Assembly: GCF_025698545.1 (NCBI RefSeq) | Contig: NC_068577.1 | Coordinates: 2,513,501 to 2,577,500, forward strand | Direction: 5' to 3' | DNA: 64,000 nucleotides | Origin: Gossypium raimondii | Lineage: Eukaryota; Streptophyta; Magnoliopsida; Malvales; Malvaceae | Part shown: piece after piece, positions 44,289-49,397 of the stretch | Layout: each line of letters begins with the position of its first letter | Position numbering within the stretch: the stretch's first letter is position 1 | Made by a program: the position numbers and the translations under genes | Notes under the pieces: model-generated | Database searches by the model: none | What the model saw: only the letters and a program-made list of their open reading frames with translations | What the model was told of the DNA's origin: nothing

Positions 44289-47200
44289 CTATTGGCAACC
44301 CTTCAAAGCCAACAATGCAGCTCCATAGGCAGCCTCGGTTTGAGTTGCTCGACTCACAGGTAGACCAAGTACTCTCTCTCGAATCTTTGTCCATTTTTCG
44401 TTCTTTGCACCGCCTCCGGCGGTGAACACTTCATCGACTTGGGTCGCGCCTAGATCCTTCAACAACATGTATGCCTTTGCCTAATGTATATCTCACCAAA
44501 TTAAGGTGCAATTTAGAGTTAGCTTTCATCTGTACTAGCAAATAGAATGTTGAACAAGGAGCTATCTCTTTATACCTCTATACGGGCGATGGATTCCAAA
44601 ATGCCATGCAAGTACTCCACGTCACTTTCTGGTCGTGGATGTAACCTGAACAAAATCGAAAACTCGATAGCATTTTGATCCAAACGCAATGTTTGTAAAA
44701 GCTATGTTGATCTCTGACTCTTCCTTTTTTTTCTTTAAGTGTCCATGTACAATGTATACCCGTACATGGGTGTGGGGATATAACTCTCTAAGACCCTCCA
44801 AATATAAGGAATAACTTAGAAAACTAAAAATACCTGTGTAAGATATATATCCTTATCCAACACTGACACACCCGAGTCCAAATAACATGGTTCCCCCTCT
44901 TCCATGTTCCAAACAAGCATTTTCACAATTCACCTAATGAATATGCCAGTCACTAGATTTCTTATGCAGTCAACTAACTTCAAAATCCTCAACAGTTCTC
45001 AATAACGCATTGTTATCGAGAACTGTAGAGTATCCTATAACAATGTTCTAATGTGGCGAGAGAGATTAAATACCTAGGCTCCATCTTCGGATTTGCCACG
45101 GGAAACCTCTCTCCAACTGATTTTAGGGGATAGTAGTCTAAGGGAGAGGCCTCCATGGGATTAATATGTTCACTCAGTTTTTCCAATTGCTCATCACTGA
45201 AATTTTCCTTTAAAACTGCTCCGCCAGTATTCGAAGCTCCTCCGACAAGCCACTTATCGTCAAGGCGATGACTGTACACTCCGTATCTTGCATCCTCTAT
45301 CCTAGTAGTACTTAGTAGTTTAATTGCAAGGGTTGAACCCAAAGAGGTAACCTACATAAAAATAATAACCAAAATTACTGTTGAGGTCCCCAAAAAACAG
45401 CTGCAAAATGCACCATGGCAGTCAATAGACAAGAGCCTTATAATTTTACAAACAGAATTATAGCAGAAAGATGCTTGTCTATAGTTACTTTGGCAATAAT
45501 GAACCCCATATGACACAGCCTGATGAATATAAGTATGACAACCACAAACAAAGACGCTTCCCATTTCCTGATAAAACACAAACTAAAGTGTAAGTCCGAA
45601 AAAAAAATACAAACCGCTTTCCCTGGTTTTGTTGCTCGTGCTGCAAGAAAGGCAGCTATGCTATCAGTGGTCCCGGTACATACAATACAATCTTCTGAAA
45701 AACCTGCTATGAAAGTGTTAGTAAAATATTAATGGCAGTTTCAGCAGCTTAGGCAGGTTTAACTTGCAATCAAAGAATCAACAGCAATCAGAACAAATAA
45801 ATATAAAACTCAGAGCTATCATCACTTCATAATGCTTAACTCTTTTACAGGTGCTAAATCTCAAATTGAACTATTCCCAATGTAAATGCAAAATCTTACA
45901 TTCTGAGGAGTGAAAAGTATAATGCTTAAACCCCGAAATTTCCTGCCCTTTGAACCATCTAGGAGGCACAGAAAGATATTTAATGGAACAAATTCATACC
46001 AAATTGTGTTCTAATATCGCCTTTCAAATGGCCGATTGAAGTTCCCGCGCCTTGACCATAGGTAAAAGTTGAGCATAAGGCTGAGATAACAACCAATCTG
46101 GATAGGAGTCAGCTTCGGGATCATAACCAACCTAGACACACATGAAGCAATATCTTAGCCATTTATTGCTTAAATTTGTTCTAGCCTGTAGATTACCAGT
46201 TAGGAATCAAAATCCTATACAGTGACTAACGAGTTATTGCATGCAAGACCTTCAGAGCGTTGTTATAATCAGAAACTCCAAGCTGACCATGAAGAAGCCA
46301 CAACAACCAATCAGCTTGGTGTAATAACATTGTGGATTTTTTATCTGAATCGTCATTGTTCCACCATGAAACAAGCTTGCACAGAGTAGATGAACCAGAG
46401 CACACTGTATGGTTTATAGGAGCGATGGACTTTACCAATGGTAAAGCGTCAGGACAACTCTCATTGTAGAGGTAAGGTCTGGCTAATGGTTCTCCTGTTT
46501 TGCTGCAGGTGATAAAATTCATACACCATATTGAAATTCAATCCAGTAATTGAGGAGGAAAATGCCACATAGATCAGCAAATGGTAATGTTTAGTTCTTT
46601 TAGATAATAACCTGTCGATGATCAGCGTAGTGGCAGAAGTCCCATCAAGAGAGATGGAAGCGACAAGAGGCCGGAGATGAACCGGAACATCTTCAAGCAA
46701 TGAGAAAAGAGTTGTTTTCCATGACAGCGCCCAATCCAGGGAGTCTTCCTTCTTTCTAGACAAAGAGAAACAGCTTCATCAAATATGATCACAAATCCAA
46801 ATTTTCGAACTCTTAAACACATGCAATTTGTAAGGAACAATTTAAATCATCCAAGCAACTTAAAACTAGCGTGAAACATTATATCAAGGGTTTTTTTTCT
46901 TTTAATTCTTACCATGTAATTAGGGTACTCTCTTTTCCTTCAGCATGAATTGTCCCTTGCTTGTCAATCAAAGCATACCTAGCACCAGATGTACCGAAAT
47001 CCATTCCAAGATAAAGCCTCTCACTAGCTTGAAAACCCATTTCTTGATTCTCAATCTTACATCCAACAACCATAGTTCTCAGCTTTACTGATTTCTCTAC
47101 ACTCTTCTCCCATGGATGAATTCGTACATTCAACTTCCTTGAACTACAACATCCTGGAGAAAGGGTGCAAACGATTACTCAATCAACCCTTGGCAATATA

Positions 47201-49397
47201 CATCATGTTATATACGCCGTTTAAATCAGTGAATGACCAGTGGACCCGAATTTTATGGATGTCAAAGAGCTACTACTACTAAAATAAACAACTTACAAAA
47301 ACTTTACAGTGACATCTTAATATGCAGAACATACACGAATTAAGAGAGACTTGAGAAAATGCACCATGGCAGTCAATAGACAAGAGCCTTATAATTTTAC
47401 AAACAGAATTATAGCAGAAAGATGCTTGTCTATAGTTACTTTGGCAATAATGAACCCCATATGACACAGCCTGATGAATATAAGTATGACAACCACAAAC
47501 AAAGACGCTTCCCATTTCCTGATAAAACACAAACTAAAGTGTAAGTCCGAAAAAAAAATACAAACCGCTTTCCCTGGTTTTGTTGCTCGTGCTGCAAGAA
47601 AGGCAGCTATGCTATCAGTGGTCCCGGTACATACAATACAATCTTCTGAAAAACCTGCTATGAAAGTGTTAGTAAAATATTAATGGCAGTTTCAGCAGCT
47701 TAGGGCAGGTTTAACTTGCAATCAAAGAATCAACAGCAATCAGAACAAATAAATATAAAACTCAGAGCTATCATCACTTCATAATGCTTAACTCTTTTAC
47801 AGGTGCTAAATCTCAAATTGAACTATTCCCAATGTAAATGCAAAATCTTACATTCTGAGGAGTGAAAAGTATAATGCTTAAACCCCGAAATTTCCTGCCC
47901 TTTGAACCATCTAGGGAGGCACAGAAAGATATTTAATGGAACAAATTCATACCAAATTGTGTTCTAATATCGCCTTTCAAATGGCCGATTGAAGTTCCCG
48001 GCGCCTTGACCATAGGTAAAAGTTGAGCATAAGGCTGAGATAACAACCAATCTGGATAGGAGTCAGCTTCGGGATCATAACCAACCTAGACACACATGAA
48101 GCAATATCTTAGCCATTTATTGCTTAAATTTGTTCTAGCCTGTAGATTACCAGTTAGGAATCAAAATCCTATACAGTGACTAACGAGTTATTGCATGCAA
48201 GACCTTCAGAGCGTTGTTATAATCAGAAACTCCAAGCTGACCATGAAGAAGCCACAACAACCAATCAGCTTGGTGTAATAACATTGTGGATTTTTTATCT
48301 GAATCGTCATTGTTCCACCATGAAACAAGCTTGCACAGAGTAGATGAACCAGAGCACACTGTATGGTTTATAGGAGCGATGGACTTTACCAATGGTAAAG
48401 CGTCAGGACAACTCTCATTGTAGAGGTAAGGTCTGGCTAATGGTTCTCCTGTTTTGCTGCAGGTGATAAAATTCATACACCATATTGAAATTCAATCCAG
48501 TAATTGAGGAGGAAAATGCCACATAGATCAGCAAATGGTAATGTTTAGTTCTTTTAGATAATAACCTGTCGATGATCAGCGTAGTGGCAGAAGTCCCATC
48601 AAGAGAGATGGAAGCGACAAGAGGCCGGAGATGAACCGGAACATCTTCAAGCAATGAGAAAAGAGTTGTTTTCCATGACAGCGCCCAATCCAGGGAGTCT
48701 TCCTTCTTTCTAGACAAAGAGAAACAGCTTCATCAAATATGATCACAAATCCAAATTTTCGAACTCTTAAACACATGCAATTTGTAAGGAACAATTTAAA
48801 TCATCCAAGCAACTTAAAAACTAGCGTGAAACATTATATCAAGGGTTTTTTTTTTCTTTTTAATTCTTACCATGTAATTAGGGTACTCTCTCTTTCCTTC
48901 AGCATGAATTGTCCCTTGCTTGTCAATCAAAGCATACCTAGCACCAGATGTACCGAAATCCATTCCAAGATAAAGCCTCTCACTAGCTTGAAAACCCATT
49001 TCTTGATTCTCAATCTTACATCCAACAACCATAGTTCTCAGCTTTACTGATTTCTCTACACTCTTCTCCCATGGATGAATTCGTACATTCAACTTCCTTG
49101 AACTACAACATCCTGGAGAAAGGGTGCAAACGATTACTCAATCAACCCTTGGCAATATACATCATGTTATATACGCCGTTTAAATCAGTGAATGACCAGT
49201 GGACCCGAATTTTATGGATGTCAAAGAGCTACTACTACTAAAATAAACAACTTACAAAAACTTTACAGTGACATCTTAATATGCAGAACATACACGAATT
49301 AAGAGAGACTTGAGAGAGAAAAAAAAATACCTGGTTTTGGGGACAATGGATAAAGCAGGATGGAGAGGGTGGATGAATGGTTAATAGAGCCAAGCAT
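44289..49397 (-). CDS. XK1: Plastid-type D-ribulose kinase (XK-1-like FGGY carbohydrate kinase)
   Basis: Nine exons encode 487 aa: 49397-49331, 49112-48871, 48705-48566, 48456-48204, 48085-47953, 47654-47566, 45351-45074, 44645-44576 and 44480-44289. All phases agree. Residues 1 to about 45 are Ser- and Leu-rich with few acids, like a plastid transit peptide (start [12 protein letters not shown]). The FGGY N-domain has the phosphate loop DFGTSGAR (74-81). [16 protein letters not shown] carries the expected catalytic Asp (about 292). TAGGGAKN (444-451) is the C-terminal nucleotide-binding motif. The sequence closely resembles the Arabidopsis protein first called xylulose kinase-1 and reported as a D-ribulose kinase, phosphorylating D-ribulose to ribulose 5-phosphate. 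The 2.2 kb intron between exons 6 and 7 contains a second copy of exons 2-6 (see 45405-47355), so correct splicing would need to skip them, unless the duplication is an assembly artefact. Confidence 0.88.
45405..47355. repeat. Tandem duplication, copy 1 (downstream of copy 2 in gene orientation)
   Basis: A 1951-bp direct repeat of 47356-49314, meeting it head-to-tail at 47355/47356 with about one base of microhomology. I found no substitutions between the copies. Copy 1 is shorter by eight bases in total: single bases in G- or A-runs near 45752, 45961, 46057 and 46864, three Ts around 46891-46904, and one C in a CT-run near 46930. Confidence 0.93.
45615..47153 (-). pseudogene. Duplicated kinase exons 2-6, two of them frameshifted
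   Basis: Copies of exon 2 (47153-46913), exon 3 (46751-46612), exon 4 (46502-46250), exon 5 (46131-46000) and exon 6 (45703-45615). Exons 3, 4 and 6 are identical to the upstream set. Exon 2 is 241 instead of 242 bp (its end reads GKESTLITW in place of GKREYPNYM). Exon 5 is 132 instead of 133 bp and hits a stop after QSAI. As written, this set cannot contribute to a kinase. No exon 1 exists for it. Confidence 0.85.
47356..49314. repeat. Tandem duplication, copy 2 (intact exons)
   Basis: About 1959 bp, carrying kinase exons 2-6 in frame. It begins AAAATGCACCATGGCAGTC and ends TACACGAATTAAGAGAGACT plus TGAG. Exon 1 lies just beyond it at 49331-49397. Confidence 0.93.

Follow-up and report, generated by a model that had tools for sequence, protein, structure and literature searches.

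An apparent tandem duplication of exons 2 to 6 in a putative plant xylulose-kinase-type gene is probably an assembly artefact

We posit that the tandem duplication of exons 2 to 6 in a putative sugar kinase gene on C13 is an assembly artefact and not a real feature of the genome, a reading to which we give a probability of about 95% and which draws on the assembled sequence. The preliminary description of this DNA had proposed an artefact, and that proposal is supported by the zero substitutions and one-sided losses between the copies, by the intact gene that is obtained without copy 1 and, above all, by four further pairs of abutting repeats (T2 to T5) nearby. The window, that is, the whole stretch of DNA that was analysed, covers 64 kb (C13:2513501-2577500) of a 751-Mb assembly in 281 contigs; the coordinates of the features are collected in Table 1.

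The two copies, of 1951 and 1959 b, lie head to tail and adjoin with zero bases between them. The preliminary description had placed two copies of about 1.95 kb at 45405..49314 with a junction at 47355/47356, had found no substitutions by eye and had listed eight bases lost from copy 1 in particular runs; global alignment puts the copies exactly there, returns 1951 matches and 0 mismatches, and reproduces the list, the 8 bases absent from copy 1 being spread over 7 sites and none being absent from copy 2. Two G triplets are shortened to GG, a G pair to a single G, A5 to A4, T10 to T8 and T5 to T4, and a CT run has lost one C. BLAST of copy 1 against copy 2 gave 1 mismatch and 8 gapped bases in one setting and 0 mismatches and 7 gap openings in another. 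Five of the seven indel events fall inside runs of at least three bases, and such runs account for 20% of copy 2 (P = 0.005); that all seven loss events should affect the same copy has a P value of 0.016. There are no N letters in the 64-kb window, and none at the join.

The gene lies on the minus strand, and the repeat comprises exactly exons 2 to 6, its two ends being placed in introns 1 and 6. Splicing from exon 1 through copy 2 to exon 7 gives a single open frame of 1202 nt. The same frame with copy 1 in place of copy 2 is broken twice, by two frameshifts, and reading copy 2 and then copy 1, as assembled, puts the exon 6/exon 2 junction out of frame, so that a stop is reached after seven codons of the second exon 2. 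The protein encoded by the 1202-nt frame aligns without gaps to 334 residues (14-347) of the solved chain 5htr, with an E value of 7e-181, and the segments matched by the two later exons (Table 1) bring this to a full-length match to a solved plant enzyme. Both frameshift sites of copy 1 lie within the part aligned to 5htr, and at these sites the copy 2 state is therefore backed by a relative that does not come from this genome. Based on these alignments, the gene is a putative plant xylulose-kinase-type (FGGY type) sugar kinase: exons 2 to 7 (via copy 2) and the two later exons align with the plant xylulose kinase entered as "Putative xylulose kinase" (PDB 5htr, 5htv and 5htx), from which the assembled locus differs in having exons 2 to 6 doubled, and once copy 1 is omitted the gene is an ordinary member. 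When single exon pieces were compared with Pfam, the exon 2 piece matched FGGY_N under its curated cut-off, and three other pieces gave zero family matches. A PDB search with the exon 2 piece alone was headed by designed pentatricopeptide proteins, which matched in weak pieces only and were discarded as candidates; the kinase ranked fifth.

Table 1. Coordinates of the kinase gene, the duplicated unit and the long abutting pairs on C13. Coordinates without a C13 prefix are positions in the window.
Feature	Coordinates	Strand	BLAST substitutions/gap openings	Remarks
Exon 1 of kinase, from ATG	49331..49397	-		outside duplication; assigned from splice signals and reading frame; unmatched in solved chain
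Exon 2, copy 2	48871..49112	-		gene model and 5htr alignment
Exon 3, copy 2	48566..48705	-		gene model and 5htr alignment
Exon 4, copy 2	48204..48456	-		gene model and 5htr alignment
Exon 5, copy 2	47953..48085	-		gene model and 5htr alignment
Exon 6, copy 2	47566..47654	-		gene model and 5htr alignment
Exon 2, copy 1	46913..47153	-		gene model; one base short, frameshift
Exon 3, copy 1	46612..46751	-		gene model
Exon 4, copy 1	46250..46502	-		gene model
Exon 5, copy 1	46000..46131	-		gene model; one base short, frameshift
Exon 6, copy 1	45615..45703	-		gene model
Exon 7	45074..45351	-		outside duplication; gene model and 5htr alignment
Exon after exon 7	44576..44653 (limits approximate)	-		matches 5htr residues 346-371
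C-terminal exon with stop codon	44289..44477 (limits approximate)	-		matches 5htr residues 373-433
Copy 1 of unit, exons 2-6 and introns	45405..47355	-		taken as end of left-hand piece; 8 bases short, 2 of them exonic
Copy 2 of unit, exons 2-6 and introns	47356..49314	-		taken as start of right-hand piece reaching C13:2599582; frames intact
Suspected false join	47355..47356	.		1 base (A) common to both sides; without N
Kinase pair	45405-47355 / 47356-49314		0/7	
T2	C13:2597545-2599582 / 2599583-2601614		1/12	
T3	C13:2605980-2609145 / 2609144-2612298		7/31	
T4	C13:2611340-2614417 / 2614415-2617513		7/43	
T5	C13:2621908-2624364 / 2624365-2626846		4/29	

Does the genome hold the unit anywhere else? 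With the repeat unit as a DNA query against the 751-Mb assembly, there were 2 matches among the best candidates scored, both at this locus, and the exon 4 protein matched at the same two places alone (4 candidates scored). We then added flanks of 100 kb on the left and 120 kb on the right, giving 284 kb of C13 including the window, across which there are no N letters, and compared this sequence with itself (megablast, at least 85% identity over at least 150 b). Of the 22 repeat pairs found, 16 do not abut and 6 do; five of these six are long (2.0-3.2 kb), namely, the kinase pair and T2 to T5, the last four being located 35-64 kb to its right. All five fall within 68 kb, and 0-3 bases are common to both sides of their joins. 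T3 overlaps T4, such that a 1-kb stretch is present three times, and the pieces between the joins measure 38.7, 9.6, 5.3 and 9.9 kb, each sharing 2-3 kb with its neighbour, as would be expected of overlapping reads or small contigs set one behind the other with their overlaps untrimmed. In assembly searches with T4 (3085/3098 b) and T5, full-length matches were restricted to these pairs; parts of both resemble dispersed repeats elsewhere in the assembly, and the two partly repetitive queries had 45 and 59 matches tabulated, all on C1-C13, which together with the 751 Mb may point to a D-group diploid cotton. Since T2 to T5 abut, are dominated by indels and follow one another like a chain, they are taken here as further unmerged overlaps of one region of the assembly, and the five overlaps together suggest where the boundaries of the pieces would lie. 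The sixth abutting pair (C13:2593972-2594528) is a separate case: it is 283 b long and has 2 substitutions and 0 gaps in BLAST and 9 bases common at the join, and this short tandem repeat is probably real.

Summed over the five long abutting pairs, BLAST shows 19 substitutions and 122 gap openings, versus 579 substitutions and 98 gap openings in 15 other repeat pairs from the same 284 kb (Fisher P = 1.3e-62; kinase pair alone, P = 1.7e-6). These P values are to be read as a guide only, given that the control repeats, at 85-95% identity, are older and mutually non-independent; for their age, their substitution share may be higher than a fresh duplication would show. The 283-b pair fell below a length filter of 500 and is not in the count, the T3-T4 cross-match (14/16) was dropped from the 16 non-abutting pairs to leave the 15 controls, and BLAST counts were used for T3 and T4, whose cut boundaries would each add two edge events. 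Most of the few substitutions in the abutting pairs (15 of 19) lie no more than 6 columns from a gap. A further 50 kb, from C1, yielded 22 repeat pairs; none of these abuts, and their differences add up to 1327 substitutions and 277 gap openings. Two of the 22 are near even in gap openings and substitutions (12/10 and 18/20), which we count against the artefact reading. The C1 stretch itself (C1:2500001-2550000) holds a cluster of direct repeats that are 85-97% similar and mostly dominated by substitutions, two pairs being rich in indels, and the cluster is probably a real repeated family.

Are the errors clustered at the ends of the pieces? A Mann-Whitney comparison of positions, with edge events counted in, gave a strong trend for T4 (P = 4e-7), one in the opposite direction for T3 (P = 0.003) and no clear trend for T2 (P = 0.06) or T5 (P = 0.78), and thus there is no general rule for the position of errors; the kinase pair falls outside this comparison because every loss sits in one copy. 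Along T3 and T4, the copy that carries the shorter state changes: for one stretch it is mainly the one, for the next mainly the other.

Can the array instead be genuine, exons 2 to 6 having been duplicated in tandem very recently and copy 1 having since acquired sequencing errors or the losses of a pseudogene? A very young real duplication with errors in one copy was the alternative named in the preliminary description. The absence of N at the join would agree with this, the single common base there fits end joining, and a short abutting repeat that is probably real lies nearby. Against it, none of the seven differences between the copies is a substitution, and the array as assembled would stop translation of a gene with no other copy found in the assembly. 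Nor would it account for the four more pairs of like form, two of them overlapping; real duplications would need five abutting events in 68 kb, with so few common bases and almost zero substitutions. We therefore hold it very improbable that a recent intragenic duplication broke the sole copy found, or is spliced out, and was then overlaid with sequencing errors. In the artefact's disfavour, no N marks the join, the errors follow no one simple rule along the copies, and the kinase pair is 99.6% identical, compared with 98.3-99.2% for T2 to T5, the nearest of which is 35 kb away. Still less credible is a heterotype false duplication, in which parental haplotypes are placed in succession, and which likewise yields two versions of one locus per scaffold (PMC8081667, PMC9516828); substitutions would be expected between haplotypes, yet copies 1 and 2 have none, copy 1 has exons broken by two of the losses, and in the five pairs together substitutions are far outnumbered by gap openings and mostly sit close to one.

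The assembly artefact that we favour has a named counterpart. In Rhie et al. 2021 (PMC8081667) and Ko et al. 2022 (PMC9516828), a homotype false duplication consists of overlapping sequences at contig boundaries; the duplicates are separated by a gap in the account of the former, and the latter recognises intragenic false exon gains as a class of their own, marked by low depth, by gaps and by discordant reads. Such a duplication would also be expected to show low or fluctuating read depth and an anomalous k-mer copy number. The scaffold has two adjacent copies of one locus, and, judged from the assembly sequence alone, small indels are all that separates them, with no variants of the haplotype type. 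In its anatomy, then, the kinase pair fits a homotype false duplication, sharing the tandem copies of one locus, differences of the consensus-error kind and a false exon gain inside a gene. In contrast to the description in PMC8081667, the kinase join has no N and hence no marked assembly gap, and five such joins occur within 68 kb.

In our proposed mechanism, the genome would carry a single ordinary copy of the kinase gene. Two neighbouring pieces would both have covered the same 1.95 kb, one at its right end and the following one at its left end; during assembly or gap closing, the overlap would have been missed and the pieces butted end to end, doubling exons 2 to 6. The join without N may represent a gap that was closed by sequence. 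Copy 1 would have retained losses in base runs typical of unpolished long reads, and copy 2 may be clean because polishing recruited accurate reads to it; for the kinase pair, copy 2 would have captured all of them. We speculate that the alternation in T3 and T4 could arise similarly, if polishing reads were drawn to whichever copy was nearer the truth and the other was left unpolished. In this scheme we would expect no read across the join and halved depth, both presumed, as is the joining program.

If the artefact reading is right, the false exon gain can be struck from this plant kinase gene, of which the assembly searches returned no further copy, and C13:2558905-2626846 would be a badly joined stretch in which gene models, copy-number counts and variant calls are not to be trusted. 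The pattern would also offer a cheap test that requires no reads: a search for abutting copies that differ almost wholly by small indels.

The window also holds four self-complementary stretches (2010-2493, 24686-25074, 30519-31040 and 49600-49848) of 249-522 b and 69-78%, which resemble remnants of inverted-repeat mobile elements. The last of them lies upstream of the kinase, some 200 b from its start codon.
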